A program made the position numbers and the translations under genes. From the NCBI RefSeq assembly GCF_000517265.1, contig NZ_AYSJ01000004.1, positions 261,286 through 325,285 of the forward strand: a DNA stretch of 64,000 bases, in the 5' to 3' direction. Positions 26,412 to 45,409 of this stretch are shown here, in pieces. This DNA is from Photorhabdus khanii NC19. GTDB taxonomy: Bacteria > Pseudomonadota > Gammaproteobacteria > Enterobacterales > Enterobacteriaceae. The notes under the pieces are model-generated. The model was not told the DNA's origin. It was given only the letters and a program-made list of their open reading frames with translations, and ran no database searches. Numbering within the stretch: position 1 is the first letter of the stretch; each line of letters starts with the position of its first letter.

Positions 26412-27500
26412 ATGATGACTAACATTGATGTAGATTACTGCTACTCATTCCCTGCGCTGCGAGGTATTCAGGCTGGTAAACCTTTTTACGTCGCCATGTG
26501 CCCAATGCGCGTCATCCCTAAAATTTTTAGCTTTGATGAAAATGAAGTTCCGCCTGAATTAAGAGCACAAAGAAGTTTGAACAAAGCACGCATTCCTGAA
26601 ATGGCAAGATATCTAATTGAAAATCCGAAAGATTATATTTTTTCTGCGCTGACCGCATCGATTGCTATTGATGTAAGATTTGATGAGTTTTCTGATTCAA
26701 ATAATCTTGGTACATTACGTGTTCCAATGGAAGCACAGATACTTATCAACGATGGTCAACACCGCCGCAAAGCTATTGAAGATGCTTTGGAACAAATGCC
26801 GGAATTGGGCCAAGATAATATTCCCGTCTTGTTTTTTGTCGACGAAGGGTTGAAGCGCAGCCAGCAAATGTTTGCAGACCTAAACAAGTATGCCATTCGT
26901 CCCAGTCCTTCACTATCGGCACTGTACGATCACCGTGATATCAGCTCAAATCTGGCTCGCTATCTGGCGATGTCCGTTGAGCCGTTTGCCGGGCTGACAG
27001 AACTGGAGAAGTCCAGTATCAGCAAACTATCCAATAAGTTATTTACATTAAGCAGCATTAAACAAGCGACCCGTGCTCTGTTGGGTAAAGATCCTAAAGA
27101 AGGGGATCTCGAAGAAAACACACACATTGCCACACTCTACTGGCAGGCTGTTTACCACGTTATGCCGGACTGGCAACTAGCGGCCAAAAAAGAAGTTTCC
27201 CCTGCACAGCTGCGTCAAGATCATGTACATGCTCATGGTATTGGCCTTCAGGCGCTAGGATTGCTGGGGCGTAGTCTGCTGGCAGAACATCCCGAACACT
27301 GGCAGCAGAAAATAGCTGAACTTAAAGCCTTTGACTGGCGTAAAAGCAATCCCGAACTGAGTAAACGGGCGATGCAGCATGGAAAGCTGAGTAAAACCAG
27401 TGCAGCCATTCAGTTAACCTGTAATGCGCTTAAACATGCCCTCTCACTTCCTCTCACTCCTGAAGAACAGGAGCTAGAGGCTCAAATGGTTATCTCATGA
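26412..27500 (+). CDS. dndB: DNA phosphorothioation regulator DndB
   Basis: 362-residue DndB, the first gene of the dnd modification operon. The DGQHRR motif at residues 114-119, in ILINDGQHRRKAIEDAL, defines this DGQHR/ParB-like family, and MCPMRVIPKIF near 29-39 is typical of the N-terminus. DndB is dispensable for sulfur incorporation itself; homologues act as transcriptional repressors of the operon and may influence modification frequency. Two ATGs open the gene; the SD is weak. The stop overlaps the dndC start by 4 bp (ATGA). Confidence 0.93.
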   Translation: MMTNIDVDYCYSFPALRGIQAGKPFYVAMCPMRVIPKIFSFDENEVPPELRAQRSLNKARIPEMARYLIENPKDYIFSALTASIAIDVRFDEFSDSNNLGTLRVPMEAQILINDGQHRRKAIEDALEQMPELGQDNIPVLFFVDEGLKRSQQMFADLNKYAIRPSPSLSALYDHRDISSNLARYLAMSVEPFAGLTELEKSSISKLSNKLFTLSSIKQATRALLGKDPKEGDLEENTHIATLYWQAVYHVMPDWQLAAKKEVSPAQLRQDHVHAHGIGLQALGLLGRSLLAEHPEHWQQKIAELKAFDWRKSNPELSKRAMQHGKLSKTSAAIQLTCNALKHALSLPLTPEEQELEAQMVIS

Positions 27501-29131
27501 GTAAACTGATTCAGGCCTATGATCTGGCCGAGTATGAAGATTTCATTAATCAAGAGCAATTTGTTGGACGCCCTCTGGCCGAATATGTTGCTGAAGTTCA
27601 AAGAATTTATTGCGCGGATAAACGCCCGTGGGTGATTGGTTATAGCGGCGGTAAAGACTCTTCAGCGGTTATTACGCTGGTGTACTTGGCCTTGCTGGGC
27701 CTGCCTCCTAAAATGCGCAACAAAGATGTTTTTGTGGTGTCATCCGATACGCTGGTAGAAACCCCTGTAGTGGTGGATTTGATCAAAAAGACTATGCTGC
27801 AAATCGAGGCCGGTGCAAAGCGTAACGGATTACCGATCACTCAACATTCGGTGACGCCAAAAATCCATGAAACCTTCTGGGTCAACCTGCTGGGTAAAGG
27901 TTATCCGGCCCCGACCCGTAGTTTTCGCTGGTGTACCGAGCGCATGAAAATCAACCCAGTCAGTGATTTTATTAAAGATAAAGTCAGCCAATTTGATGAA
28001 GTGATTGTTGTTCTGGGTTCACGCAGTAGCGAAAGCGCATCACGTGCGCAGGTTATCGCGAAACATAAGATTGACGGCACACGGCTTGCCCGACATACCA
28101 CCTTACCTAATGCCTTTATCTACACCCCCATCGATACTTGGGATGTGGAAGACGTTTGGAAATTGTTGAGAGGCGCGTTTCGCTATTCTCCCGATGATAT
28201 AAAAGAGTGGGAAAATCCATGGGGGGGAAATAACCGCCCATTATGGACGCTCTATATGGACTCATCTGCTCAGGGAGAGTGCCCACTAGTGATTGATGAT
28301 AGTACCCCATCCTGCGGTAACTCTCGTTTTGGCTGCTGGACCTGTACCGTTGTCACCAAAGATAAAGCAATGGAAAGCCTGATTAAGAATGGTGAAGAGT
28401 GGATGTCCCCATTGCTGAAATATCGCGATCTACTGGCTTTTACGACCGATCCTGCGAATAAAGACAAGTACCGCAACTATAAGCGTCGTACCGGTAAGGT
28501 GAGTTATCAGTACGCCAAAGATGGTGAAGATCCTGGCGCAGAGCGTAAGCATGTTCCCGGTCCCTACTGGCTTAAATACCGTCAGCAGTGGATAAAAGAG
28601 TTGCTGAAAATTGAGCGCGATTTGAATGCTCAGGGCCACACCATTACGTTAATTACGCAACCGGAATTGCATGCAATCCGTCAGGAGTGGCTAAAAGATC
28701 CCAATGAGCCAGATTGGTACGACACTCTGCCCGGTATTTACCGCGAAGTGTATCAGCAGGATCTGGATTGGGTGGTCGACGATCAGTCACGCTTTGACGC
28801 CAGCGATGCTGATTTGCTGGTGCAAATAGCTCAGGGGTTTAATGTTGAGCCAGAGATGGTAATGAAACTGATTGAGCTGGAAGTTTCAATGGAAGGGTTA
28901 AGCCGCCGTCAGGGTATTTTTGACAAGCTCGGCGCCATTTTAAAACAAGACTGGGGCAGTCTTGAAGAGATCCAGCAGCAGCAGGCAATGTTACAAAAAC
29001 GCAATGACCGGGATATTCATCAGGAAGAAGTTGCAAAGCTGGAAGCTGAGCTTCAGGTTTTACAGCGCAGAATTGTCGATGCCAGTGAATCATCTGTATT
29101 TGTAGGTGAGGGAAACGAACGTGTTAATTAA
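27497..29131 (+). CDS. dndC: DNA phosphorothioation protein DndC (PAPS-reductase-like)
   Basis: 544 residues of the adenine-nucleotide alpha-hydrolase / PAPS reductase superfamily. The PP-loop SGGKDS is at 50-55. Cys146 (in FRWCTERMK), Cys262, Cys273, Cys280 and Cys283 (CGNSRFGCWTCT) supply the ligands for the 4Fe-4S cluster. DndC activates the DNA backbone with ATP and takes part in sulfur transfer. It overlaps dndB by 4 bp and dndD by about 11 bp, so BCDE is tightly coupled. No dndA cysteine desulfurase precedes the operon, so a chromosomal IscS-type enzyme presumably supplies sulfur. Confidence 0.95.
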   Translation: MSKLIQAYDLAEYEDFINQEQFVGRPLAEYVAEVQRIYCADKRPWVIGYSGGKDSSAVITLVYLALLGLPPKMRNKDVFVVSSDTLVETPVVVDLIKKTMLQIEAGAKRNGLPITQHSVTPKIHETFWVNLLGKGYPAPTRSFRWCTERMKINPVSDFIKDKVSQFDEVIVVLGSRSSESASRAQVIAKHKIDGTRLARHTTLPNAFIYTPIDTWDVEDVWKLLRGAFRYSPDDIKEWENPWGGNNRPLWTLYMDSSAQGECPLVIDDSTPSCGNSRFGCWTCTVVTKDKAMESLIKNGEEWMSPLLKYRDLLAFTTDPANKDKYRNYKRRTGKVSYQYAKDGEDPGAERKHVPGPYWLKYRQQWIKELLKIERDLNAQGHTITLITQPELHAIRQEWLKDPNEPDWYDTLPGIYREVYQQDLDWVVDDQSRFDASDADLLVQIAQGFNVEPEMVMKLIELEVSMEGLSRRQGIFDKLGAILKQDWGSLEEIQQQQAMLQKRNDRDIHQEEVAKLEAELQVLQRRIVDASESSVFVGEGNERVN

Positions 29132-31121
29132 GCAACTAGTATTGCGTAATTTTCGGGTATTCAGCGGTACGCATGCTATTGATCTGGCCCCCAGAAAGCG
29201 CCCACATGACGTGAATCCCCGACCTATTGTGCTGTTTGGTGGTTTAAACGGCGCTGGAAAAACCTCGATTTTATCGGCAATTCGGCTGGCGTTGTATGGT
29301 CGTTTGGCGTTTGGCCTCGCAACTCAGCAACAGGAATATATCGAGCAGCTTAGCGCATTGATTCACAACGGCGCGTACTATATCGAACAACCGGAAGAAG
29401 CGGCAGTAGCGCTGACGTTCACCTACAATAAAGGCGGCCATGAGGCAGAATTTACCGTCACACGAACCTGGAAAAAAGGCAGGAAAGATCGTCTTTCTCT
29501 ACAACAGGATGGGCAGCTTCTTGATGAGCTGGATTATGACCAATGTCAAGGGTTTCTTAATGAATTAATCCCGCATGGTATCGCCGATCTGTTCTTTTTT
29601 GACGGTGAGAAAATTGCGGAACTGGCGGAAGATGAATCCGGTAATATCCTGCGTACTGCCGTGCGCCGTCTGTTGGGTCTGGACCTGATATCCAAGCTAC
29701 GTAATGACTTAATGATTTTTGTTAAGCGCCTGCAATCTAGTCAGTTAGCAAGCTCTCAGCAACAACAGCTTGCGGAGCTTGAGGCACAAAGTAAAAAATT
29801 AGCCTGTCAGACGGAAGAAATACTGGAAAAAGCCGATTTTGCCAAAACGCGAATTGAGTTTCTATCTAAAGACATTACCCGTTACGAAGGGTTATTGAAT
29901 GCGCAGGGGGGTGCATTTGCCCAGACTAAAGCGCAAGAAAAACAGAAAGTTGAAACGCTGCTAAAAGATAAAGAACATTTGGAAAAAGCATTGCGGCAGG
30001 AATGTGATGGATCGCTACCCTATGCGCTCGCTCCCAATACCTTATCCCTTTTGCTACAACAAATTGCTGATGAAGCACAGATCAAGCAGGCAAAAAGCTT
30101 TGAGAAAGAACTGAGCCAGTTTTTAGCTCAACTCAGAAGCGATATTGCATTGCGCTCCAGCACCACCAGCAAAATTGCAACTGAAGCCATTACCGATAAT
30201 TTGAAAGAGTATATGGCGGCCAAACCCAAAGGCGATTTGCTGTTTGATATCTCTGAACGAGAAGCAGGCATGCTCCAGCAATCAATTGATCGGGACAGCA
30301 AGAGAGCATGGCAGCGTTTCGATCTTTACCGTACACAGTTGGCTGAGATTGAACAACAGTTAGAACAAGCTGCCGCTAATATTGCCCGCGCTCCGGAAGA
30401 CGATCAGCTAATGGATTTCTTTGAGAAATTACGCTACCTGGATCGGCAGCGCGAAGCTCAGCGGCAGAAATATCGTTCACTACTGGAAGAAGCTAAACGC
30501 AAAAAACAGCAGCAACTGGATTGCGTCCGCAAGGTCCAAAAAGCACATGATGCTGCCCGCTATCAGTATGGTTTTAGCAGTTCATTTAAAAACGCCCAAG
30601 AAACGATAAATTTACTCGATCGCTACAGCGACGTATTAACTCAGGCGCGAGTAAAAACGTTGTCTACAAACTTTGAACTGGCCTACCGTAAGCTGGCCCG
30701 TAAAGAGGATTTGCAACTTAATGCACATATCAACCCGGAAGCATTTGATGTAGAGTTGATTGATGAAAATGGCTCGATAATTAATCGTAAATTGCTTTCA
30801 GCTGGTGAAAAGCAGATTTATGCGATTGCGATCCTTGAAGCACTGGCAAAAACCTCTGGCCGTGATTTACCGGTGATTATTGATACGCCGTTAGGACGTC
30901 TGGATTCTCAGCATCGGGATAAGCTAATTAACCATTATTTTCCGGAGGCCAGCCATCAGGTTGTGCTGTTATCTACTGATACAGAAGTGGATGAACGTTA
31001 TTTTGTCGATCAATTGCGTGATGATATTTCTCATGCTTATGAGATCGTTTTTAATACGCATACCAAATCATCCACACTGAAACCCGGCTATTTCTGGGAA
31101 TTAACCAAGGAGACTATCTGA
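29121..31121 (+). CDS. dndD: DNA phosphorothioation protein DndD (SMC-like ATPase)
   Basis: About 666 residues from the GTG at 29121; another GTG at 29106 is in frame but lies closer to AGGG. Walker A is GGLNGAGKTS (about 40-50), the ABC signature is LSAGEKQI near 568 and Walker B VIIDTPLGRLD near 592. The middle (about 200-480) is heptad-rich coiled coil without a CxxC zinc hook. DndD is an RecF/SMC-like ATPase thought to alter DNA structure during sulfur insertion together with DndC and DndE. It overlaps dndC and shares the last base of its stop with dndE. Confidence 0.95.
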   Translation: MLIKQLVLRNFRVFSGTHAIDLAPRKRPHDVNPRPIVLFGGLNGAGKTSILSAIRLALYGRLAFGLATQQQEYIEQLSALIHNGAYYIEQPEEAAVALTFTYNKGGHEAEFTVTRTWKKGRKDRLSLQQDGQLLDELDYDQCQGFLNELIPHGIADLFFFDGEKIAELAEDESGNILRTAVRRLLGLDLISKLRNDLMIFVKRLQSSQLASSQQQQLAELEAQSKKLACQTEEILEKADFAKTRIEFLSKDITRYEGLLNAQGGAFAQTKAQEKQKVETLLKDKEHLEKALRQECDGSLPYALAPNTLSLLLQQIADEAQIKQAKSFEKELSQFLAQLRSDIALRSSTTSKIATEAITDNLKEYMAAKPKGDLLFDISEREAGMLQQSIDRDSKRAWQRFDLYRTQLAEIEQQLEQAAANIARAPEDDQLMDFFEKLRYLDRQREAQRQKYRSLLEEAKRKKQQQLDCVRKVQKAHDAARYQYGFSSSFKNAQETINLLDRYSDVLTQARVKTLSTNFELAYRKLARKEDLQLNAHINPEAFDVELIDENGSIINRKLLSAGEKQIYAIAILEALAKTSGRDLPVIIDTPLGRLDSQHRDKLINHYFPEASHQVVLLSTDTEVDERYFVDQLRDDISHAYEIVFNTHTKSSTLKPGYFWELTKETI

Positions 31122-31474
31122 TGCTCCCGAATCGAATGCAGCTCAGTCGTCAGACAGAAGAGCAGCTTAAGAGATTAAAAGGGTATACCGGGATCACTCC
31201 TAATGTCGCAGCCCGGCTGGCATTTTTCCGTTCAGTAGAAAGTGAGTTTCGTTATTCGCCTGAGCGGGATAGTAAAAAGCTAGATGGCACGCTTGTGTTG
31301 GATAAAATTACGTGGCTAGGGGAAACACTGCAAGTTACGGAGCTTGTCTTGAAGATGCTTTATCCGCAGATAGCGCAGAAGGACATGATTAAGGCGTGGG
31401 CAGCACATGTTGAGGATGGGATTGCTGCGTTGAGGAATTATCGTAGTCTTAGAGATTTTTTCATGGGAATATAA
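31121..31474 (+). CDS. dndE: DNA phosphorothioation protein DndE
   Basis: 117 residues, the usual DndE size. DndE proteins form tetramers with a preference for nicked double-stranded DNA and complete the modification complex. The sequence is helical and Lys/Arg-rich near the start (QLSRQTEEQLKRLKGYTGIT), followed by NVAARLAFFRSVES. It overlaps dndD by one base (TGATG). It ends 11 bp before the shared hairpin that separates it from the opposing operon. Confidence 0.92.
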   Translation: MLPNRMQLSRQTEEQLKRLKGYTGITPNVAARLAFFRSVESEFRYSPERDSKKLDGTLVLDKITWLGETLQVTELVLKMLYPQIAQKDMIKAWAAHVEDGIAALRNYRSLRDFFMGI

Positions 31475-31484
31475 ACAAAAATAA

Positions 31485-31517
31485 AAGGGATACGGAATAT
31501 TAGTTTCCATATCCCTT
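31485..31517 (-). terminator. Terminator between dndE and the leftward restriction operon
   Basis: Arms AAGGGATA / TATCCCTT (31485-31492, 31510-31517) extend inward with GGAA/TTCC. Leftward, the strand continues into TTTTATTTTTGTTT, an excellent T-tract for the five-gene leftward operon. Rightward the T-tract is poor. Confidence 0.75.
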
Positions 31518-31529
31518 ACAAACTTGAAA

Positions 31530-33068
31530 TTATTTCAATAACAGGTCCTTACTATCAAAAAATATTATTTCTTTATCAGTTGAATCCTTCTGAAATTGAA
31601 ATAATTCCAGTCCCATTGTTGAGGCAAGAGTATTTATTTCTTTTTGGTTCATATCGGAACTGGATACAATGACTGAGAAAATGAACTTATTAACTAACTC
31701 AACGTTATTAATAAACCAAACAGGAAATATACTATTAAACAATACTTCCTCACTAACATTGACATATCTGGCTAAACTCATAAATCTATCATGGTGATCT
31801 AAAGGAATGCATTGTTCATAGTACTGAAATAAATCATCGGACTCGATACCCAGCTTTTGAGCTATATCAGTTATATTATCAGATAAGGCTCTCCATAATT
31901 CTTCTTCTGGGTTTAAACCATCAATTGATGGTAAGGATATAACTGGTATAACTTTACCAACAAGTTTACTTATTTTTGCACGCATATCGGCATCAAAAAC
32001 AGCAAAAAAATTAAACCCTATGGTTTTATTAGGGTTGAAGTGTTTTACTACCTTTTCGATATCCGACTCACCATCTTTAAAGCTTACTATATGATAGTCA
32101 TAGGCAATGTCAGAAGCAGCTCGGTTCAACATACCATTAAGAAATAAGTAAGAAAACTTGTCTTCAACAATAAAAACTCCTTTTTTTCTTGGTTTAATAC
32201 CTAGTGCAGTGAAATACTTTCTTTCATGTTTAGGGGATACAACGTTAATCCCTGCGCTGCTAATATTAGAAATTAATCTGACATTATTAATACCAACTTT
32301 ATTTAAAATCGACTCAGAGTGACTAGACAATAATATCCAAATACCTCTTTGTGATGATATATAAGCTAGATAGTCCATTAAATATTCCTGGCTATACACA
32401 GATATACAATTTTCTATTTCATCTATGAGTAAAACAGAATGAGCATCGATCCAATTTACGAACCAAAAAATATACATACATAAATATTCACCAGCCCCCA
32501 TTTCAAGACAAGTATATTCCACTCCATTAGGCAGGGTGACTCTGATAAAGGGGAATGTATAATCATCTTCTAATGCACCTTCAACTTCATAAATCTCTAT
32601 TTTTGAGTAAACCCTTCCTATGACATTTCCTATTACATTGATATTTTCTTTTTTTCCCAACAATCCGTTTGGTTCAAGCCCCTCAATAAAATCCTCAATA
32701 TTCTCAGAACTATTCAAGAAATTTATAATTTTATTACATTCCACTGATGGCTCAAGGTAATTAACAGAAATATCTTCAATATTTTCAACCTCAGAGTTAT
32801 CCTTTATTAAAGAAATGTTAATATCAGCTTCATCTAATCTCGTTCTATATAGATCATTTTTCTTAATATGAGAATAGATTGATTTTAGGATAGTACTCTT
32901 ACCTATTCCATTTTTACCACAAATTACCGAAATGCCATTATTTAATTCTAAGCAAAATTTATCAGATATCCCTTTAGCATCACTGATTAAAACTTGACGA
33001 AGTTGGCAATTATAATTAGATAAATCTTGAGTTCTACGCCACCCATCACAAAATTTGGCTAGCCTCAT
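31530..33068 (-). CDS. AAA ATPase with TOPRIM/DUF4435-like C-terminus, appended to dndFGH
   Basis: 512 residues. Walker A GKNGIGKST at 51-59, a signature-like MGAGEYLCM near 190, Walker B VLLIDEIE at 212-219 and an H-loop SSHSES near 248 make an SMC/OLD-type ABC ATPase. From about 297 the chain changes to VFIVEDKFSYLF (Glu302) and FFAVFDADMRAK (Asp359, Asp361), the acidic pattern of TOPRIM-like DUF4435 regions in OLD-family nucleases. The start lies 4 bp after the DUF262 stop with AAGGAG overlapping it. It is the last gene of the dndFGH operon and much more AT-rich than dndFGH. A DNA-bound nuclease effector is a reasonable guess. Confidence 0.75.
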   Translation of the reverse strand: MRLAKFCDGWRRTQDLSNYNCQLRQVLISDAKGISDKFCLELNNGISVICGKNGIGKSTILKSIYSHIKKNDLYRTRLDEADINISLIKDNSEVENIEDISVNYLEPSVECNKIINFLNSSENIEDFIEGLEPNGLLGKKENINVIGNVIGRVYSKIEIYEVEGALEDDYTFPFIRVTLPNGVEYTCLEMGAGEYLCMYIFWFVNWIDAHSVLLIDEIENCISVYSQEYLMDYLAYISSQRGIWILLSSHSESILNKVGINNVRLISNISSAGINVVSPKHERKYFTALGIKPRKKGVFIVEDKFSYLFLNGMLNRAASDIAYDYHIVSFKDGESDIEKVVKHFNPNKTIGFNFFAVFDADMRAKISKLVGKVIPVISLPSIDGLNPEEELWRALSDNITDIAQKLGIESDDLFQYYEQCIPLDHHDRFMSLARYVNVSEEVLFNSIFPVWFINNVELVNKFIFSVIVSSSDMNQKEINTLASTMGLELFQFQKDSTDKEIIFFDSKDLLLK

Positions 33069-33072
33069 TCGG

Positions 33073-34263
33073 TCACTCCTTCCAATCTTCCGCGAGATCT
33101 TCTATGATAAATTTTACATTAACATTCTTATCTTCCATAAGACATACAAATTCATTAAGAGAATTGTTATCTTTTCTTTGTAAACATGAAAGACCAATCC
33201 CCGCTCTGAGACAGGAGAAATTTTGTATAATATCTCTAATAATAATCGAACCAATAGACATAACTCGTGAAGAACTTCTTTCAATATAAATCATTAATAA
33301 TTCACGAAGACATTTCTCATCAATATTAAAGAAAGATAAAATCTCGGATGGAATTTTCTCATTTGCTTTAACATGGGCCTTAGCTGATTCCAAATTAAAG
33401 AATGCGTTATATATCTGTTTATTTTCAAAATCTTCACCATAGATATTCATGCATGAAATTAGATATATCCAGTTCAAAGACGATGCTTTCGTAAGATTAG
33501 TGCTTATTTCCATGTTTTTTATATGGGAACTAAAAGCACCAAATATCTTTATCGTATCTTTAATAGCAATAGATATTTTACTATCGAAACTGGTATCATT
33601 ACGATATCTATTGGTTAAATTTGCATCACTGAGTTGATAGCGAATACTTTTCTTCTCAAGAAGAAGGCAAACACGAGAAAGTAAATCATTGTAAGCCATC
33701 CTAGAGTTACTAAATCCAAGAATGCCTTTATCAACACCAAGTTCATCCATATAAGAAACAAAGGATGATATATCATCACGTACATCACCGAAGATAGCAT
33801 TCCTAGCCTCAGATGAGGTCAGCTTTATTGTTTGGTTTAATCTATAGAAAAGCTCGCTAGGTTCACCTTGATTATATTCAGTTATCTCATAAATAGTAAT
33901 ACCAAAACGCTCAATCTTTCTTTGGATATCTGGATGTAAGTCTTTAAATTTTTTGCCATGTAGTTCGACAATGTCTTCATCCTTAGGTTCGATAAGACCA
34001 TCAATTTGAAATTGATTATCCAAAAAATCCCGAATAGCAGTCAGTCTCTGCTGTCCATCTAAAACTTCAGCTTTTCCATTGCCAATAGATACAGTGTGTA
34101 TTGGTGGGATGTACCATTCACGAAGAATGGAGTCGATTAATAATTTCTTTTTTTTCGTCGTCCAAACTTCACCACGTTGGAAGTCAGGTCTAAGATCTAG
34201 CTCCCCATCTTTAATATCCGCATAAACACTTTTTATTTTATTTGTAGTATCTTTTATGATCAT
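33073..34263 (-). CDS. DUF262 (DGQQR) protein, appended to dndFGH
   Basis: 396 residues. The N-terminal half is a clear DUF262/ParB-like domain: DFQRGEVWTTKKKKLLIDSI at 27-46 and VLDGQQRLTAI at 67-77. DUF262 is the nucleotide-using domain of GmrS and of SspE, the restriction partner of the Ssp PT system, but those carry a DUF1524 HNH nuclease that is absent here; the C-terminal 230 residues are alpha-helical with no H-N-H pattern. It begins 5 bp after the dndH stop and ends 4 bp before the AAA gene, so it is translated from the dndFGH message. It may sense PT state or nucleotides and control its ATPase neighbour. Confidence 0.78.
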   Translation of the reverse strand: MIIKDTTNKIKSVYADIKDGELDLRPDFQRGEVWTTKKKKLLIDSILREWYIPPIHTVSIGNGKAEVLDGQQRLTAIRDFLDNQFQIDGLIEPKDEDIVELHGKKFKDLHPDIQRKIERFGITIYEITEYNQGEPSELFYRLNQTIKLTSSEARNAIFGDVRDDISSFVSYMDELGVDKGILGFSNSRMAYNDLLSRVCLLLEKKSIRYQLSDANLTNRYRNDTSFDSKISIAIKDTIKIFGAFSSHIKNMEISTNLTKASSLNWIYLISCMNIYGEDFENKQIYNAFFNLESAKAHVKANEKIPSEILSFFNIDEKCLRELLMIYIERSSSRVMSIGSIIIRDIIQNFSCLRAGIGLSCLQRKDNNSLNEFVCLMEDKNVNVKFIIEDLAEDWKE

Positions 34264-34268
34264 GTCGT

Positions 34269-37200
34269 TTATCCTTTAATCAGTTCCCAAAACGCCCGAT
34301 CCCGCATCTTCTTAACCCGTTTATCCCCATCAATATACAGGCTAAAATGCTTCTCCAGTTGCCGAATCTGCCCCATCAGGGATTCTTGCTCACCTTTATC
34401 ATCGACGTTAAACACCGCCTTGATATCTGCATTCTTAATCTCTGACACACGATGGATCACCCAAGTCAAAATATAGGAGGCATAATTATTATCCCCTGTC
34501 TTGAAGTGAGTTATCTCCTGCGTTGACAGAATCACGCCAACACCATACTCGCGACCTTCTTTAAGGATCTTACGCAAGCTGGCAAAATCCTGACGCATAA
34601 AGTTATCAGCTTCATCCACCAGAATCATTTTAGTTAGCTGTCGATAATCCCCACACACTACCGGTTTACCCCTTTTTTGCATCTGCGCATAGAACAGATC
34701 CAGAGTCAGTGCGACCACCAGATTTTGTATTTCCGGCGGATAACCTGCTAACTCAATCACAGTTACACCGTCGATCAACTCGTACAGGCTGGTCATCTGT
34801 TCAGGGATAGTTTCAAATATTTTGTAACGCGCCAGTTTAGATAGCGCCGCGTACAGCGAATCTTCTTCGACTTTCTCTTGGTCGAGAAAACGCAGCCATA
34901 CATCTTCAATCGTTGGTGCGGTTCGTGACCATGTTGTCGGATCTTCCGGCGAAATCCCCGCCGAGTCATAACACTCTAAAATCAGGTTTTCTAATTTAAG
35001 CTGCTGTTTGTGGCCCAAACCATAGGCTTTCGCCATCGTTTCCGATAACCCGCCTGCGGTATGGATCGGCAACATCGGCGTATCGCCAAACAGGGAGAGT
35101 GGGTTATACGGCAGCTTAAATAACTTATATTTTTTAGCACCAGTTGCTTCCAGAAAAGCATCGTCCACATAGTCTGATTTGTAATCGAAGATCAGCAAAC
35201 CAATTGGCTTACCATCAACGTTACAGGACTGATTGCTCATCAGTTGCGTGACCACCGATTTGGTAAACTGAGTTTTCCCGGTGCCCATCGTGCCAATAAT
35301 ACCGGTATTGGTGTTCATAAACTTCGCGGTATTGGTCGGTTCCCAATATAGCGGACGCTGACGCACAGCATCATGACCAAACAAAATTTGCAGTGGTGTA
35401 TCACTTATGTCGGGAGATTGCGGCAGTGCAACGGGTTGTTGCAACTCCGGTTCAGAAATGGATTGCGTTTCGGGCAGAGAAACAACCTGTTCTACCGGCG
35501 CAGGTTGTAATGACTCTGCATCACAACCCGGCTTAAGCCGATATTTTTCCGGCACCCGATAACGTTCCGCGAGTGGCGGTTCATCCCCTTTCGTGGAGAT
35601 CAGCGACGGCAGCAGCGAATAAGGAATTTCAATCTGTAAGATATTATCTGATGTCTCTTTATAAGAGAGATCAAAACAACTTTCACTGTCCACATGAGCT
35701 ACAACAAAGCCATCAGCATAGCCTGCCAGGTTACCCAACTGGTAATCACCAGTTAGCCACCATTCACGCCGCTCCAGCAAGAGGGCCAGCTTGTCACTGT
35801 CCAGTACGCCGTACAGACGCAGTTTTTCTACCTGCATTAATACCTGACGAATAAAGAGCGCCCGGTACAGCTGTGATGCCAGCGTTTGCGGCTCCAAGAT
35901 ATCCTGCTGTAAATAGCGCTTCAGCTCTCGGGCCTGCTGTCCTGCATACCTGTAATCTGGCCGTGCCCCAGTCTTAACTTCCAATGGCAACAGATACAGG
36001 CGATTCTCTTTGAAGCCAACAAAGAGCACATCATCAGAGATCGCACCTTTATGATAGCCCTGTAAGTTACGGGATAAATCGCTCTCTTTCATTTTCAGCC
36101 CGACATTGCCGGACACACGGATCATTTCCGCCACCGATAACGGAATCCAACAAATATCGGATTGATGCAGCATGGATTGCACGAATTTATACGCGCCGAT
36201 GATACCGTGTTTCTCTTTACGCTCCTTTTCACCCGAACACAGCATTTTCAGCAACCATTCGCCGTTAAAGGCATTAAATTCAGCAAGCAGGTGCTGGCTG
36301 TCAACGGCAGGTTGTCCGGTCTGACCTGACGTCTGAAGTAGGCGCAAGAACAGTTCGACCTGTTTTGTGACAGTAACGGCGTCATAGCCCACGCAACTGG
36401 TGTACTGGTCAGAGTAATGGATCAGCACCACGTCTTTCTGGCTGGTAAAGAAATCAAGAGTGACTTTGGGGTCGATAATGGTTGTCCAAAGTGAACTGTC
36501 ATAAGAACGGTTAAGTAACTGCTTAAAGTTACCGCTTACTGCCAAGCCAATCCCCTGTCCATGATACTGGCTGTTGCTCTGACGCGCCGGTTGCCACAGG
36601 CAACCCAATAATCGGGCAAGTCGCAGGGCACAGTAGGGCTCAGTATCGACATCACGCAGGCCAAAAGCGGTAAAATAGGCATCACCCTGGGTTTCCGCAC
36701 CTTCACCTGCAATAAGGCCATGACATAATACCCCGCTGGAAGCATCTTCGATGCGGATTTGGCGGCAATCCACTGGCGCGGTATTAGTAAAAAATGCCAG
36801 ATGGGCGTAAGCCAGTTTGTCGCTTTCCGGCGGCAGAATAAATTTGCTGAACGTTAATCGACTTCGCAGCAGATCAATCAGCATCTCGGCCTCTGCACGC
36901 CATGCGCCGCTGTTCAGACCAAGATCGTTTTTAAGCCGTTCATAGCTACCACTTTCGGCAAAGTGATCAAAAGCATTAGGGAGCAGGCGTTCATCGTAGC
37001 AGTTCACATGCACCGAAATAGCACGCTCTTTTTCCTGCTTAAAATATTCCACTAATCCTAGGAACAGCTCTCTGGCGTTCCCTTGGTTAATGGCATTGAT
37101 AATCAGCGCATTATTTCCGGCATTCTGGAACAGCCGGGCATAGGCGTCCGTGAATTCATTAAGTTTATCTTTTACTAGCCGTTTAACGTAGTCATGACTC

Positions 37201-39365
37201 ATCTGACGCTGGGGAACAACGTCGATCCAGAAACGGTTTTCCGCTACCGGCTGTAGTTGCGCATATTCATGTTCGCTATGATAAACAAACGGCATTAAGC
37301 CGGAGACCACAAGACGATCGAGGGTAATTTGCGGTAATGAGGAAAATGAATGCTGCTCTGGCTCCGCGATAATCGTTTCCGTCAGCTGTAAATGGTAAGC
37401 CAGAACTAAGGGATGCAGCGGCGAGAGACGTTCATAATTATCGCCACGACAAATTCCCAGATGCAACAGACGCTTTTCCTGCACGGTCAGCGCCCTGCTC
37501 AGACCGATTTGCTGTAGTGCCTGTTCAAACGTAGTGACGATGTGGCTGACCAGTGCACGGTATTCAGCTGACCACGATACAAGGCTCGGCAAGGCGCTAC
37601 GGTGTTGATAGTAAGCAAGCAGTTGATGATACGCATTGTGGAGATCGGGATAGCTGGCACGAAGTTCATCCAGTGTAAACACACTATCGTCATTTCCTGT
37701 ACCGAGATGGTTCCGTTCAATCAGTGAAGCTTCCAGCATCAGCAACTGTTGGCGCACCCCAACTACGTTATGTTCAGTATTATCCAGAATAACGCGCCCT
37801 TTCATCCGGTTATAAGCCGCATTACCTTCTTCTTTGAACAACTTACTGAAACGACTTTGGTCAAACAGCAAAGGTAGAATTAACCCTTCTTCCGCTCCCG
37901 GCCCTTCGATGTTGAGCGGCAGACGGGAATCGCCTGAAACCAGCGCAAATTGAATCAACTCGCTTTGGTTTGCCAGAGTCTCAAAATTCACCCATGCATA
38001 GTGTCGACAGTCAATATCATCACTGTCTTCATCCAGCGTACAAATCAGATCGCCTACTTCAGCAATACGCAACTCGTTGTCTTCCAGTTGCAGTGTCAGT
38101 TGCCCTTTACCCGGCTCAACACGGTAGCAATGTTGAATATCGTTCAGCCAGAATTGCCCCTGTTCGACCAGTAACAGACGAAATTTATACTCCTCCGCCG
38201 AATTATTACGATTGATCAGTTCAAGGCTAAAGAAGCAGGGATGTCCATCGAAAGGGACCGACGCCATAATGCGGGAAGTTTTTCCCCCGGCCCGGCTGGT
38301 GCGCCAGAAGTGTTTTTTCTGTAATCGCCGGTGATGGGCAATTTTTATCTGATTATCCTGAAGATCGTTGCCCTGAAAGCTGAGCTCCAACTCAACCTGC
38401 GATTGTCCTGGTTGTACCTGTACCAGTAAACTGATGTCACGTTTGCCCGCTTTACTGATACTTTTGGCTCTTTGCCAAACTTCACCATTCTCAACGCAGA
38501 CGTTATCCAGCACCAGCTTTTGTTCGCTGTTCTGTTTTTTTTCATCCAGATAGTCAGCAAAATCAAGCTCACGCCAGTCATCTTTATCAACGAAATGCTC
38601 CTGAATGAATTTGGTACTGAATTCGGTCAGTACATTCTCCAGTTGCCCACTGTAACGCTCAATACTGTCTTCTATCTGGCGATATAATTTCCGGTTTTCA
38701 TTCAACCGAGCGCGTAGCTGCTTATGGCTAAAATTTAGCAACTCACCATCGTTGAATAGCTTTAGCTCGGAGAAATCCAGGTTACCATCGTCCAGCAGGC
38801 GATATAACGATGAAAAACCAAATACGGTTGCACCTTCCTCCAGTACCGTTGTCAGTTGATCATCCAGCAAACAGCGGGACAGCTCTGAACGGTTGCTGTC
38901 CGTGGTGATTAATTTCTCCAACTGGTGGCGGAAGGTTTCGGGATACCAGATAGCATCCGGTGCGGCCACGTCTTTAGTGCTGTTGATCAGGGTATCCAGC
39001 ATGCTGTTATGAATAATCAGCAAAGCCGTTTGGGCAAAAACCCCGCTGCGACCAGCCACTTTATCGCGCAGATGGGAAATATAGTTTTCCGTAAACGCAG
39101 GAGCGGCGGTACCGTGCAGAACCAGAATAAGCTGAATGCCATTACACGAGATACAGGCGAGATGCTGTGCCGGTGCAATCTCCAGTTGATTTCCATCTGC
39201 CAGGGTGACAAAAGCCTGCCAGAGCTTTAAGGCATTATCGGGGTCGGGAGATTTAAACTGATAGCGCTCACCTAGCTGGATGGTAACGCTAACCCATTTA
39301 ATAAAAGTTTCCGCCAGATAGGTTTCATACTGTTTTACGGACATACACGGCGTCTCCACTGTCAC
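34269..39365 (-). CDS. dndH: PT-dependent restriction protein DndH (HerA/FtsK-like ATPase)
   Basis: 1698 residues, the large translocase-like subunit of DndFGH. The ATPase is C-terminal: Walker A GTMGTGKTQF near 1357 and Walker B MILVDEADNF near 1580, with the HerA/FtsK-like segment EGREYGVGVILSTQ between the catalytic parts. The N-terminal 1300 residues have no simple motif. With DndF and DndG it restricts DNA lacking phosphorothioate. The start is either GTG at 39365 or ATG at 39344; both overlap the dndG end. The 3' end is 5 bp from the DUF262 gene. Confidence 0.92.
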   Translation of the reverse strand: MTVETPCMSVKQYETYLAETFIKWVSVTIQLGERYQFKSPDPDNALKLWQAFVTLADGNQLEIAPAQHLACISCNGIQLILVLHGTAAPAFTENYISHLRDKVAGRSGVFAQTALLIIHNSMLDTLINSTKDVAAPDAIWYPETFRHQLEKLITTDSNRSELSRCLLDDQLTTVLEEGATVFGFSSLYRLLDDGNLDFSELKLFNDGELLNFSHKQLRARLNENRKLYRQIEDSIERYSGQLENVLTEFSTKFIQEHFVDKDDWRELDFADYLDEKKQNSEQKLVLDNVCVENGEVWQRAKSISKAGKRDISLLVQVQPGQSQVELELSFQGNDLQDNQIKIAHHRRLQKKHFWRTSRAGGKTSRIMASVPFDGHPCFFSLELINRNNSAEEYKFRLLLVEQGQFWLNDIQHCYRVEPGKGQLTLQLEDNELRIAEVGDLICTLDEDSDDIDCRHYAWVNFETLANQSELIQFALVSGDSRLPLNIEGPGAEEGLILPLLFDQSRFSKLFKEEGNAAYNRMKGRVILDNTEHNVVGVRQQLLMLEASLIERNHLGTGNDDSVFTLDELRASYPDLHNAYHQLLAYYQHRSALPSLVSWSAEYRALVSHIVTTFEQALQQIGLSRALTVQEKRLLHLGICRGDNYERLSPLHPLVLAYHLQLTETIIAEPEQHSFSSLPQITLDRLVVSGLMPFVYHSEHEYAQLQPVAENRFWIDVVPQRQMSHDYVKRLVKDKLNEFTDAYARLFQNAGNNALIINAINQGNARELFLGLVEYFKQEKERAISVHVNCYDERLLPNAFDHFAESGSYERLKNDLGLNSGAWRAEAEMLIDLLRSRLTFSKFILPPESDKLAYAHLAFFTNTAPVDCRQIRIEDASSGVLCHGLIAGEGAETQGDAYFTAFGLRDVDTEPYCALRLARLLGCLWQPARQSNSQYHGQGIGLAVSGNFKQLLNRSYDSSLWTTIIDPKVTLDFFTSQKDVVLIHYSDQYTSCVGYDAVTVTKQVELFLRLLQTSGQTGQPAVDSQHLLAEFNAFNGEWLLKMLCSGEKERKEKHGIIGAYKFVQSMLHQSDICWIPLSVAEMIRVSGNVGLKMKESDLSRNLQGYHKGAISDDVLFVGFKENRLYLLPLEVKTGARPDYRYAGQQARELKRYLQQDILEPQTLASQLYRALFIRQVLMQVEKLRLYGVLDSDKLALLLERREWWLTGDYQLGNLAGYADGFVVAHVDSESCFDLSYKETSDNILQIEIPYSLLPSLISTKGDEPPLAERYRVPEKYRLKPGCDAESLQPAPVEQVVSLPETQSISEPELQQPVALPQSPDISDTPLQILFGHDAVRQRPLYWEPTNTAKFMNTNTGIIGTMGTGKTQFTKSVVTQLMSNQSCNVDGKPIGLLIFDYKSDYVDDAFLEATGAKKYKLFKLPYNPLSLFGDTPMLPIHTAGGLSETMAKAYGLGHKQQLKLENLILECYDSAGISPEDPTTWSRTAPTIEDVWLRFLDQEKVEEDSLYAALSKLARYKIFETIPEQMTSLYELIDGVTVIELAGYPPEIQNLVVALTLDLFYAQMQKRGKPVVCGDYRQLTKMILVDEADNFMRQDFASLRKILKEGREYGVGVILSTQEITHFKTGDNNYASYILTWVIHRVSEIKNADIKAVFNVDDKGEQESLMGQIRQLEKHFSLYIDGDKRVKKMRDRAFWELIKG

Positions 39366-40554
39366 TCATTCGCTCCACGTTTCCCATGCGTTCATAAAAT
39401 GCAACCAGCATTTGCGCGGACTGGTTATCCAGATAAAATCCGCGTTGCTCAAAACCACGCAGCAGTTCATACAGTCGGAGTTTGTCATTTTTGCCAACGG
39501 TGAGGTTGGTCAGCAGCAGTAGGCGATCCTGGTTCAGTACCAGCACTTTCCCAGCCCGGCCACGCACCTGGATGAAGTCAGTACAAATCTGGTTTTCCAG
39601 TTCGTTGACGTATTTCCGATTCACCTTTGCCCGCTCAGATTTTTTACCCTGAAACTGTTCAACGGCAACGGATAATAGCTGTTTGAAGGCACTTTCCAGA
39701 TTTGCAGCTCGTTCACGAGGCGGGAGCTCGCGATCCTTAATAAAATCCTGCAAATAGTCATTAAGGGCATTTAATACCTGAGAAGGAGAATCTGAATAAT
39801 TCAGGGCATCCTGATAGACCCACCATAACGGACGCTTTCTCTCCCCTTTCCCCCACTGCAAAACCTCCAGAGCAGAGAGCATCGGGAAAAGTTTTTCACT
39901 TTGGCTGGCGAACAGTTTATAGCCATAACGTTTCACTTTTTCCCGTTCAGAGCTGGCTTTTTCGGTATCAAGAATAAAAAATAACGACTTGCTTTGCGGC
40001 TCACCGTCTTGCCAGTTATCCAGATTGAGCGCCACTTGGGCACACCAGCTAAAGGCGTACAAACGCAGGGTATTGGTCAATTCCTGTAAAAGATACTGTG
40101 GGTGCTCTGCCAAAAACGCCAAATCGGACTGAAAGCACGTTACCATATAAGGCAGATAAGGTTGCTCTGCAGCAAATGGGCCTCTGCCCAAAAATGGCAT
40201 AACTTTTTCATCAAGCTTTTTCAATAGTTGCTGCTCGATGAAATTCAGCTTGCCCGGTATCGGGTAGCTAAGGCTGAAATCTCCCATCAAATTGGCAAAC
40301 AACGTTCCAAGGCGTTTATCCGCCATGGAACCTGCACTTATTTTTTCAGCGTCAAACTGGGCGTGAAACAGCAAAAACAGCGGTGAGACGCGAAAGATAT
40401 CCTGGCTGGAAAAATACATCCGTTCCAGCACAGACCAGAAGGCTGGCTCATCAATCAGTGCTTGCAAGTGCGCTTTACAATCATCGCGAAACTTATCGGG
40501 ATCGTAAGCTTCGATTTTACGTTTAAGGGCATAGCTAAGTACCAAGCCAGTCAC
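39325..40554 (-). CDS. dndG: PT-dependent restriction protein DndG
   Basis: 409 residues, identified chiefly by position between dndF and dndH and by overall resemblance to DndG/DptG. It is helical and charged and has no recognisable enzymatic motif; DndG is required with DndF and DndH for restriction. The frame begins at a GTG directly after an in-frame TAG and with a weak ribosome binding site, so no longer start is possible and a shorter one cannot be excluded. About 40 bp of its end overlap dndH. Confidence 0.85.
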   Translation of the reverse strand: MTGLVLSYALKRKIEAYDPDKFRDDCKAHLQALIDEPAFWSVLERMYFSSQDIFRVSPLFLLFHAQFDAEKISAGSMADKRLGTLFANLMGDFSLSYPIPGKLNFIEQQLLKKLDEKVMPFLGRGPFAAEQPYLPYMVTCFQSDLAFLAEHPQYLLQELTNTLRLYAFSWCAQVALNLDNWQDGEPQSKSLFFILDTEKASSEREKVKRYGYKLFASQSEKLFPMLSALEVLQWGKGERKRPLWWVYQDALNYSDSPSQVLNALNDYLQDFIKDRELPPRERAANLESAFKQLLSVAVEQFQGKKSERAKVNRKYVNELENQICTDFIQVRGRAGKVLVLNQDRLLLLTNLTVGKNDKLRLYELLRGFEQRGFYLDNQSAQMLVAFYERMGNVERMSDSGDAVYVRKTV

Positions 40555-40654
40555 GAATTGCTAGTCAATATTATTGTTTTTATTGCGTACAGGCAGGTAG
40601 CTATCAAGTTGATTGTTACCCACTTTTAACGTTGTTGAGATGGGATACATTCTG

Positions 40655-42304
40655 CTATCCCTCCATACCGCTAATGGTGATCATATCGTCATCCGCCCTT
40701 GCGCTATAAACCCGCTGCCCGCTATCATAAAATTTTATTTCACTGTTGGATTTGGCCTGTTCCGCGATCAACTCGACAATTTCATCCAGTAACACAATGG
40801 CATTTTTGTCGTATTTATTCGGGCGATAGCCGTTATTTAGTTTGTTCAAGAGCTCAAACAGATTAAGTCCGATACGGATGGGCAGCAGTGAGTTTTGCCC
40901 CACTTTTAAATGAGCATCGAAACAGGTTGGGTGAGCCGTGTTTTTCTTGAAAATTGCGTCCCAGTCTGGTTTCAGCGCCACCGGAGCTGTGATTTTAACC
41001 CCACCAAATTCGCCTAAAAAGAACTCTTCCTTTTGCATGCTTAATTCTGGCGCTTTGCGGTTCGCATAGCGCTGAATGCCAGCGATAAGCTCGGAAGTGT
41101 AAAATCGATGCAAAGCTTTTTTCTGTTCTGATTCTGCTGTGTAGTTTTTATGTAAATGCCAGATGTGTGAGTAACGTTCAAACAGTGATTCATTAAAAAA
41201 CACCAAAAAATCCCGGTGATAATCATTCCCCAGAGGCTCATGTTGTAATAACCAGAAAAGTCGAATCAATGAAGCAGCATCCCCCGGCTTAACATTCTGG
41301 CGATCAAATTTAATGTGTAATTGCTCAAGCGTTGCTAAAAAATCATCCAGTTTAGGATCTATTAGCCCAAGCTCATATCGCAAAATGAACTGATCGAGTT
41401 CATAGGTATGCAATCTGGCAGGATCAAAATCAGAGACCTTTTTAATCAAATCATTCTCTGCGCCGGTGAAGAGGTTATCAAATAAGTAGCCCGGCCCCAT
41501 CAGCAGATGATGCAAAAAATCCAGTAATGTTCTCGTGGTAACAAATTGGTCTTTAATTAGCCTGGCTTTAAATAATTGCGTAATTAATACATTCTGAACT
41601 CCGGGCATACGGAGTAGTTTAAAGTTAGCAAGTGTCTTTAAATCATGCCCTGTTGCCTCATCACGTCGAAAAATAGTGTAAAACAGATTGTTATCATCAT
41701 CGCAAGTTAAATTATCTAATAATGCTTTAATAAAGGGGGAATATTGTTTATCTTCATCAAACTGGAACTTCGGATAGTCTTCAAAATCAAAAAAATAACA
41801 ATTTTCATTGCGGTAAGGGCCACGCTCTTCTCGCTGTTTCGACAGAAATAAATCAATAGCAGCTCGGATTGCCTTGTGGCACTTAGCCCCTTCTCTGGCA
41901 AAATTAGCAAGCATCCCCGTGTTGATGCCGATGAGTAACGGGCGTGATTGCGGGTGATGATTACAAAATAAATCATTCAATGCATCAATGGCTGACTGTC
42001 GGGGAGCAAAGCTATGCGTGGCGTCCAGATGAAAGCTAAATCGCTGCTGATAACGCAGCACTGACTGGCAGCGGGTCAAAATTTCGGACTTACCATCCCC
42101 GCTGCTGCCACATAAAAAAATGATCTCGCCAGACTTTGCAATATCCAGGCAACGTTGTAAATCGGTTTCAATCTCTTGTTTAACAAAGAGTTGCTCTTTT
42201 AACTCATCGAACACGTCCCTTGGTCGATCAGTCTCCGTCGTTACGGAAAATGAAGAGGACTTAGCAAGTACACCCAACGCTTTACGTAATGTGATTGCGC
42301 TCAT
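40655..42304 (-). CDS. dndF: PT-dependent restriction protein DndF
   Basis: 549 residues with a P-loop, LCGSSGDGKSEIL at about 64-76, typical of DndF/DptF NTPases. It is the promoter-proximal gene of the leftward operon dndF-dndG-dndH-DUF262-AAA. DndFGH proteins damage or cleave DNA of cells that lack dndBCDE modification. A 100-bp gap separates it from dndG. The promoter must lie in 42305-42442, where I find no TACGN10CGTA box, so unlike dndB the restriction operon may not be under DndB control. Confidence 0.9.
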   Translation of the reverse strand: MSAITLRKALGVLAKSSSFSVTTETDRPRDVFDELKEQLFVKQEIETDLQRCLDIAKSGEIIFLCGSSGDGKSEILTRCQSVLRYQQRFSFHLDATHSFAPRQSAIDALNDLFCNHHPQSRPLLIGINTGMLANFAREGAKCHKAIRAAIDLFLSKQREERGPYRNENCYFFDFEDYPKFQFDEDKQYSPFIKALLDNLTCDDDNNLFYTIFRRDEATGHDLKTLANFKLLRMPGVQNVLITQLFKARLIKDQFVTTRTLLDFLHHLLMGPGYLFDNLFTGAENDLIKKVSDFDPARLHTYELDQFILRYELGLIDPKLDDFLATLEQLHIKFDRQNVKPGDAASLIRLFWLLQHEPLGNDYHRDFLVFFNESLFERYSHIWHLHKNYTAESEQKKALHRFYTSELIAGIQRYANRKAPELSMQKEEFFLGEFGGVKITAPVALKPDWDAIFKKNTAHPTCFDAHLKVGQNSLLPIRIGLNLFELLNKLNNGYRPNKYDKNAIVLLDEIVELIAEQAKSNSEIKFYDSGQRVYSARADDDMITISGMEG

Positions 42305-42442: not shown

Positions 42443-43697
42443 TTAGAAATTTATTTTCGCGAAATCAAACAGACTCACCACCTTCTCCCTATTCGCATCT
42501 AAGAAATCAGCCCACCACTGCAACATCAACCTCCGCTCATCCAGATGCTCTGCCTTATGAATGTAAGCCGCCCGCACGGAGTTACGTTCCATATGGCTCA
42601 TCTGCCGCTCTATCGTATCCCTCGACCACAACCCCGATTCGATCAACGAGCTACAAGCCATCGTCCTGAAACCATGCCCGCAAATCTCAACTTTCGTGTC
42701 ATAGCCCATCACCCACAGCGCCTTATTCGCAGTGTTTTCACTCATCGGCTTACGAGAATAATGATCGCCAATAAAAATCAGCTCACGATCGCCACTGAAC
42801 TTATGAATCTGCTTAAGGATTGCTAATGCCGACGGGACAACGGCACCAGATGAAGAGTACGCATTTTCGATCCACGGTGAAAATGCTTAATGCCTTCTAA
42901 CGGTTCACGTTCAGATGGAATGATCCACATTGCCGTTTCAAAATCGATCTCCGACCAGCGAGCAAATCGTAGCTCACTGGAGCGGATGAAGATCAACAAT
43001 GTAAGCTCAACAGCTAACCGGATCAAAGGTCGCCCCGAATAGCCATCAATGCGATGAAGTAATTCAGAGATTCGCTTTAGCTCAAGCGCCGGACGATGGA
43101 CACGATTACTTGAAGCTACTGCTCCTACCATTTCTTGTACAGGGTTATAGTCAATTAAGTCACTCTGCACCGCATAACTCATAATAGCGGTTGTGCGCTG
43201 CTGAAAACGTGAAGCCACTTCGAAGCGGCCCGTAGCCTCGACCACTTTGATTGGAGCGAGAAGATCGCGAGTTTTCAACTCTTCAATACTGCGCTTTCCA
43301 ATTGCCTGAAAGAAATTATCCTCCAGACTCTTAAGCACACGCCGACTATGCTCTTCCGACCATTTCTTGTTGGCGGCGTGCCAATCTCTGGCAACAGATT
43401 CAAAGGTGATGACCTCTTTAGCCTGTTCCTCTTTCACGGCATGCTTATGCTCACGAGGATCGATACCCGCTGCAACAAGCTTCCTTGCGGCTTCTCGTTT
43501 TTGTCTGGCATCTGCCAACGATGTTTCAGGATAAATACCGAATGCCATCAGGTGTTGCCTACCGCCAAAACGGAAGCGAAAGCGCTAGTATTTGGAGCCA
43601 TTAGGGTGTATCAGCAAAAACATGCCATCACCATCGACGAACGAGTATTCCTTTGCTTAGGTTTTGCAGAACGCACCTTGATATCAGTCAAGGCCAT
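42443..43697 (-). pseudogene. P4-type tyrosine integrase, multiply broken
   Basis: The ATG at 43697 opens MALTDIKVRSAKPKQ, but a missing base near 43660 shifts the frame. The correct frame then reaches KEYSFVDGDGMFLLIHPNGS and hits a TAG at 43585-43587 where the family has Trp (KYW-RFRFRF). The body (43548-42823) holds FIRSSELRFARWSEID with the catalytic Arg, and a further frameshift near 42825 separates it from the end (HGFRTMACS, MSHMERNSVRAAYIHKAEHL). It is similar to the intact integrase at 57164-58417. It adjoins the leuX-like repeat at 43895, so it once served the dnd-bearing island. Confidence 0.9.
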
Positions 43698-45021: not shown

Positions 45022-45409
45022 TTAATTTGCTGTTCCCTACTGACAACGTTCTCTTAAAACGTGGTGAGGTTTTGATTTCCAGTGACGCGGGGATTTGAGT
45101 GGATTTACCGCTATTATAAGCGCTTGTTGCTCCTACCAGGCGGTAATCCACTTTCAAGCGGTCCAACGCTTCAATCACTACCGCAGCAGAACCTCCGGGA
45201 GCAGCAGGCATCAACTTACCGGTAATCGCATTTTTCCGCGCTTTGGTGTAGACGCCATAACCTACTTTCAGCAGTTGCCCTTCCTTCACCAGTTCACGCA
45301 GTGCTCTGCCAATTTGATCGTAGCCAGCAAGATCTTTGAAATCGTCACGAGTGAAAACATAACGCTTTGAGCGTTTCAGTCGTGACTGAATACGAGCTTT
45401 TGTGGTCAT
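45014..45409 (-). CDS. DUF6088 antitoxin / regulator
   Basis: 131 residues. DUF6088 proteins pair with AbiEii toxins and resemble AbiEi N-termini: TRDDFKDLAGYDQIGRALRE near 20-39 is the winged-helix recognition part and GQLLKVGYGVYTKAR the wing. The C-terminal part is short (ASLEIKTSPRFKRTL). The gene begins 31 bp from a tandem 15-bp repeat (45440-45477), the likely operator. An AGGAGG lies just upstream of the ATG. Confidence 0.78.
   Translation of the reverse strand: MTTKARIQSRLKRSKRYVFTRDDFKDLAGYDQIGRALRELVKEGQLLKVGYGVYTKARKNAITGKLMPAAPGGSAAVVIEALDRLKVDYRLVGATSAYNSGKSTQIPASLEIKTSPRFKRTLSVGNSKLNG

Follow-up and report, generated by a model that had tools for sequence, protein, structure and literature searches.

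Introduction

The closest described relative of the locus treated here is DndI, a DUF262 protein that senses phosphorothioate (PT) and acts as a second effector within the dndFGH operon of Salmonella (dndFGHI; PDB 9JFL) (PMC11662687). Our subject is a pair of genes in a 64,000-nucleotide stretch of the Photorhabdus khanii NC19 genome (contig NZ_AYSJ01000004.1, positions 261,286 to 325,285; hereafter the window). The first encodes a DUF262 protein (open reading frame (ORF) 4) and the second an OLD-type ABC ATPase with a TOPRIM-like half (ORF5). From sequence comparison we propose that they probably form an exchangeable two-protein defence cassette, of predicted function, in a cargo slot where the convergent dptFGH (dndFGH) and dndBCDE genes meet. 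Like DndI, ORF4 is a DUF262 protein encoded with dndFGH beside dndBCDE, and a DndI orthologue fills the same slot in another locus (L068). DndI is, however, a single protein with its own C-terminal DUF1524/HNH nuclease and the PT-sensing Tyr25, whereas the cassette lacks HNH, carries Phe28 and has a separate ABC-ATPase/TOPRIM-like partner.

A second relative, Menshen, reportedly goes back to Millman 2022. In this system a DUF262 protein without DUF1524 adjoins a predicted OLD nuclease (PMC10952713); PADLOC names its proteins NsnA, NsnB and NsnC. ORF4 matches NsnA at 3e-37, compared with 1.3e-142 for the NsnA of a Menshen locus (L106), and ORF5 matches NsnB at 1.1e-13, a profile comparison aligning the two over 75 columns with a probability of 96.9. 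Unlike Menshen, the locus has no NsnC gene and no third gene before dndE, and ORF5 gave no match to the NsnC profile, so NsnC as the TOPRIM half of ORF5 was rejected. The Menshen NsnA sequences are 24-26% identical to the window DUF262 protein and form a separate clade, apart from it in the tree at 100/100. Menshen NsnB (369 amino acids (aa)) is shorter than ORF5, a difference that is not firm, one Menshen component having TOPRIM (PMC10952713). In the Menshen loci L106 and L103, PADLOC found NsnB and NsnC in both and NsnA in L106.

By profile and fold matches, ORF5 also resembles PARIS (AriA/AriB), GajA of Gabija and the OLD nucleases, which likewise join an OLD-type ABC ATPase to TOPRIM. Its partner, however, is a DUF262 protein, where PARIS has a separate TOPRIM protein and Gabija a helicase; neither a GajB-like helicase nor a separate AriB partner was found at the locus, where the neighbours are the DUF262 gene, dptH and dndE. 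Assignment of ORF5 to PARIS AriAB or to Gabija was rejected because the partners differ. TgvAB, too, is a GmrSD-related system of two genes embedded in a restriction operon, but its host operon is type I restriction-modification, it is described as GmrSD-like, and its accessible text mentions no OLD-type ATPase (PMC11411939, which also cites Payne et al. 2024 on embedded defence genes).

Varied nucleases are known from Dnd neighbourhoods (Rakesh et al. 2024, PMC10853773). The HARE-HTH restriction endonuclease named there is one of the slot cargoes found here; its main text never uses the word DUF262, and its section 17 holds neither an OLD pair nor an exchange slot. In E. coli, the interval from dptFGH to dnd has been described as holding '1 to 3 hypothetical proteins', linked to dnd-positive genomes among the islands studied (PMC4373003), and OLD-ABC plus TOPRIM effectors have been described as backups in BREX loci (PMC12839542). 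A search of the open literature (subscription papers, preprints, figures and supplements being outside its scope) met neither the pairing of DUF262 and OLD at a dnd locus nor any description of the dptH-dndE gap as a site of exchange, which is no proof of novelty. A first-pass annotation of this DNA had called the combination undescribed; the kind of layer had in fact been published with DndI, while this particular pairing at a dnd locus was not met in the literature searched.

Results and discussion

Layout of the locus

The features of the locus, in window coordinates, are as follows.
31475..34268, no strand: putative exchange slot, dptH stop to dndE stop, 2794 base pairs (bp); from DNA comparison
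33073..34263, minus strand: cassette gene 1 (ORF4), DUF262 (GmrSD_N) protein without HNH, 396 aa; Pfam 5.5e-24, PADLOC NsnA 3e-37
31530..33068, minus strand: cassette gene 2 (ORF5), OLD-type ABC ATPase with TOPRIM-like half, 512 aa; profile and fold matches
31485..31517, minus strand: hairpin resembling an intrinsic terminator, where the dptFGH-cassette strand ends; 13-bp stem and T-run
34269..39365, minus strand: dptH (dndH), 1698 aa, with a HerA-type ATPase end; NCBIfam dnd_assoc_2 1205.9 bits, PADLOC DndH 2827 bits
39325..40650, minus strand: dptG (dndG), ATG at 40650; NCBIfam dnd_assoc_1 4.8e-90
40655..42304, minus strand: dptF (dndF), 549 aa; NCBIfam dnd_assoc_3 9.9e-136
26412..31474, plus strand: dndB, dndC, dndD and dndE, genes for PT modification that run toward the slot; NCBIfam
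31121..31474, plus strand: dndE; PADLOC and NCBIfam

DndF, DndG, DndH, DndB and DndE were named by both PADLOC and NCBIfam, and DndC and DndD by NCBIfam. As the first-pass annotation had it, dptFGH, the DUF262 gene and the ATPase gene lie on one strand, with gaps of 5 bp after dptH and 4 bp between the two cassette genes, and end at a hairpin (-19.8 kcal/mol, z -5.9) facing dndE. The terminator scan overall gave 9 terminator-like sites, fewer than in shuffled sequence (mean 16.8), and an Rfam scan of 24000-46500 gave no match. The gene order is not due to chance, because it recurs in E. coli with ratios of nonsynonymous to synonymous substitution (dN/dS) of 0.06 and 0.09 between the window pair and that of E. 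coli locus L002. Both genes are open, motif-complete and under purifying selection.

dptG carries an in-frame TAG at codon 30 (40563-40561, counted from the ATG at 40650), a position that is open in all four relatives compared. Nine bases past it, a GTG at 40554 offers a possible restart, leaving a 409-aa ORF (39325-40554). The earlier annotation had recognized the gene and missed the stop, the 409-aa ORF it listed being the one that begins at this GTG. DndFGH may thus be impaired in this strain by the dptG stop while the cassette is intact.

A proposed exchange slot between dptH and dndE

The most useful result, and one stronger than the claim from which the analysis set out, is that the gap between dptH and dndE appears to act as an exchange slot, to judge by its borders, its GC content and the differences in its cargo. 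To draw its borders, nine loci were set against one another in ten DNA comparisons. The window is collinear throughout with E. coli L002, which also bears the pair. Between L002 and L031 the match runs 456 bp into a related DUF262 gene; in the other eight comparisons homology stops no more than 31 bp from the dptH stop, with an extra 154-bp match between related DGQHR genes in L032 and L029. Homology restarts 10-40 bp inside dndE in all nine interrupted comparisons. Two E. coli loci, L002 with the pair and L032 with DGQHR genes, have flanks that are 96.2% and 97.2% identical around unrelated cargo. GC content in the window is 32.0% in the slot versus 48.0% in the last 3 kilobases (kb) of dptH, and across the nine slots compared it is 31.5-34.0% versus 44.5-49.0%. 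The window DptH is nearer to that of E. coli L029 and L030 (88% and 87%), which hold other cargo, than to that of E. coli with the same cargo (84%), and a third dnd-bearing Photorhabdus (G1267) has Mrr-like and DGQHR-like cargo at the same place.

Within the order, dptH was found in 19/394 genomes. Among the 18 other loci read, 16 have dptFGH and dnd genes in convergent orientation, separated by one or more ORFs (dndE being placed by position in L055 and L056); the contig of L062 ends before the dnd genes, and L070 has none beside dptH. With the window proteins as queries, the pair was found in none of these 16 slots; the slot of L068 is occupied by a DndI orthologue (2.9e-69 to 9JFL). Pfam, run on 29 genes selected from the ORFs of 17 loci, found HATPase, DGQHR/DndB-like, PIN_8, HEPN_Swt1, HNH_2, Mrr, AIPR, helicase and other domains; some slot genes, among them a transporter in L066, have no evident defence role. 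In 7 of the 16 slots (L056, L057, L064, L067, L068, L069, L071) a DndB-like or DUF262 domain exceeds the Pfam cut-off, and four further slots (L058, L060, L061, L072) have a ParB/Srx-type match below it.

E. coli cargo was counted among 5426 complete genomes as separate lists, not intersected, beside 203 genomes with dptH by megablast. A close version of the pair (proteins 88% and 79% identical) occurs in 31 genomes, with dptH under the match in 30/30 among the matches listed, and a diverged version (41% and 31% identical) in 12, beside dptH in 12/12. A DGQHR pair was found in 123 genomes (109 with 80% coverage; its position beside dptH was read for L032 only), a second DGQHR pair in 19, Mrr with HARE-HTH in nine (9/9 beside dptH) and the ET490 cargo in one. 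The PT strain B7A has a diverged DUF262/ATPase pair beside dptH (a 100% covered match to L031).

If the slot is an effector-exchange site, it supplies a list of candidates (DGQHR pairs, Mrr, PIN, AIPR, HATPase, HEPN and DUF262/OLD), and a comparison of E. coli loci that are nearly identical but differ in cargo would separate PT-using effectors from mere travellers. As B7A carries the diverged pair, part of the effects credited to DndFGH in such strains could stem from cargo, which may bear on phage work with B7A. A more ambitious version, which we consider doubtful, is that the junction is a dedicated site where one PT mark serves interchangeable ParB/Srx-type readers (DUF262, DGQHR), each with a different weapon, and that the DUF262 plus OLD-TOPRIM pair would be a PT-gated two-protein member.

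The two cassette proteins

ORF4 carries the motifs DGQQR (residues 69-73) and PDFQR (residues 26-30). Pfam detected GmrSD_N alone and neither HNH nor DUF1524, so the protein is a DUF262 protein without HNH, as first described. ORF5 is an OLD-type ABC ATPase by profile and fold matches, with a Walker A motif at residues 51-58. In Pfam it reached 28.4 bits for AAA_21 (cut-off 27) and 31.4 bits for AAA_15 (cut-off 32.1); its PADLOC matches include HEC-04 (1.5e-19), a retron ATPase-TOPRIM (7.2e-16) and GajA (2.2e-15) besides NsnB, and its fold match to AriA covers the ATPase half. The candidate TOPRIM acidic residues E302, D359 and D361 are kept in 10/10 versions of the pair and stand in TOPRIM order in the ORF5 model. 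The first reading of ORF5 as an ATPase with a TOPRIM/DUF4435-like end holds for the adjacent ATPase and its TOPRIM-like half, while the likeness to DUF4435 falls away, Pfam giving no DUF4435 match to E 0.5. Query A4 had no match among solved structures to E 0.1.

Protein 2 is predicted to be an ABC-ATPase nuclease of the OLD/Gabija/PARIS type, whose TOPRIM-like half would cut nucleic acid. Protein 1 would be a DUF262 switch, driven by nucleotides, that senses infection or a state of the DNA and turns protein 2 on or off. At this locus the pair would be read on from dptH, adding a second effector.

Where the pair occurs

Ten versions of the pair were compared: five linked to dnd genes (the window, two E. 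coli versions, P. noenieputensis and G1202) and five dnd-free (G530, which has neither dptH nor dndC, and viral contigs L074, L075, L117 and L190, with no dnd genes within the stretches read). This even split depends on the collections searched, a viral collection being hardly able to yield dnd-linked copies, and the versions are not ten independent events, since the window and E. coli, P. noenieputensis and G1202, and L074 and L075 are close kin. By eye from translations, L074 is filamentous-phage-like and L075 has the pair beside terminase, portal and capsid genes. Because viral contigs carry it, as does a genome that lacks both dndC and dptH, the pair can exist without PT. The link to dnd genes expected by the first-pass annotation is thus borne out for one half of the versions and not for the other.

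A scan of 84,980 species genomes with two short peptide patterns, whose reach is limited, returned one bearer, P. noenieputensis (G1206, NZ_RCWC01000033.1). Its pair lies 1.3 kb past dndE, beside an Mrr remnant near the contig end, and its dptFGH ends another contig. In taxonomy-drawn genomes the DUF262 profile matched 7/369 in the class (E 1e-20), 8/398 in the phylum (E 1e-25) and 5/198 in the family (E 1e-20). The full pair is present in four distinct genomes from these draws, namely the window's own (G000), G1206, G1202 and G530, three of them dnd-linked; in G1202 it adjoins dndE, with dndBCDE and no dptH match. Among the other profile matches, two (L103 and L106) lie in Menshen loci of three genes, and L108, L110 and L111 look similar by gene sizes and alignment. 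The stretches of L085 and L107 stop shortly past the DUF262 gene; the remaining neighbourhoods read showed no such ATPase partner. In Photorhabdus, dptH occurs in 3/12 genomes and the pair's ATPase in 2/12.

Both trees place four of the dnd-linked versions together in a supported clade (99/99 and 98/96). The full set of five falls on the same side of a branch with support of no more than 68/62 and 69/79, and a single origin of the dnd link was dropped; the pair may have been recruited once or more than once.

Other searches yielded little. No match was obtained with ORF4 alone against genome contigs, with ORF5 alone, query A2 or the L084 DUF262 protein against viral contigs, with ORF5 by tblastn against plasmids, or with the L075 relative of ORF5 against phages. 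Against plasmids, ORF4 matched 704 records, none with 80% coverage and all below 60% identity, which we took as generic DUF262, and the L075 relative matched 26, none with 80% coverage. ORF5 at order level (E 1e-3) matched 26/394 genomes, the 25 besides the window's own at no more than 26 bits.

Function of the pair and possible triggers

The cassette reading is supported directly by the gene order, the ATPase and DUF262 motifs, purifying selection, the limits of the slot and the cargo differences between near-identical loci, and an added effector-like layer beside dptFGH, as first suggested, agrees with these data. Several observations pull the other way. The predicted structure of ORF4 is poor (predicted local distance difference test (pLDDT) 56.0) and that of ORF5 moderate (pLDDT 69.3, predicted template modelling score 0.54), with low Foldseek TM-scores and matches from a second aligner mostly confined to residues 17-293. 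Pfam found no TOPRIM domain in ORF5, and the one OLD-like_TOPRIM match in seven relatives scanned (L073) was below cut-off and elsewhere, at residues 404-448. Of the 12 E. coli records that carry the diverged pair, one has its ATPase gene split into two annotated pieces. Onward transcription from dptH is suggested by gene spacing, and in P. noenieputensis the pair is oppositely oriented, so that read-through from dptH is not needed there.

As to the trigger, gating by PT, with host PT as a sign of 'self' as in DndI, is a tentative possibility, and a trigger borne by phage or acting against restriction, as for PARIS, may be not far behind it. Under gating, the DUF262 protein would read host PT and the nuclease would spare marked DNA, the pair restricting unmarked DNA beside or instead of DndFGH; we regard this as conceivable but short of probable. 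DndI, a DUF262 protein of the same operon with a PT-stimulated ATPase, does so (PMC11662687), the dnd-linked clade fits, and G1202 keeps the pair with dndBCDE despite having no dptH match. The PT response, however, needs Tyr25 in DndI and Tyr30 in SspE (PMC11662687). In a profile alignment that is weak overall (probability 9% to the DndI orthologue), window Phe28 falls at this site, and Phe stands there in 15/15 DUF262 sequences, five dnd-linked, five dnd-free and five Menshen or Menshen-like. PT sensing, as suggested at the outset, thus finds no support in the sequence. Phe28 takes away one argument for sensing, which may still occur, Phe being aromatic as well. Half of the versions also lack dnd genes in the stretch read, G530 lacking dndC.

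Four viral contigs and G530 carry the pair without dnd genes, which, together with the NsnA match, would suit an autonomous Menshen-like module that shares slot and transcription with its neighbours and has no functional tie to PT. Recurrence between dptH and dndE, in the window and in 31 and 12 E. coli genomes, and a position beside dndE in two more genomes argue against such a passenger, which we judge somewhat unlikely. Less likely again is a PARIS-like guard that fires when a phage blocks the DndFGH layer, leading to abortive infection: the BREX backups (PMC12839542), the AriA fold match and the position within a restriction operon speak for it, but the genome G1202 has the pair and no dptH match, and the viral-contig pairs have no dnd genes in the stretches read. 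That the genes are degenerate or regulatory leftovers without a defence role is very improbable; dptG of the same operon is interrupted, but the pair itself is open, motif-complete and under purifying selection.

Neighbouring features

On the dptF side, an integrase-like gene in two ORFs (42443-43548) adjoins dptF, and two ORFs similar by eye occupy the same place in Photorhabdus G1267 (L197). An AbiEi/AbiEii-type pair follows at 44071-45409; very similar ORFs, again by eye, lie on the dndB side in L197. At 24367-24669, a 100-aa ORF matches positions 2-93 of 284 of the NCBIfam family 'phosphorothioated DNA-binding restriction endonuclease' below cut-off. It seems to be truncated, so that a fragment of a PT-cutting enzyme lies next to the PT-making genes.

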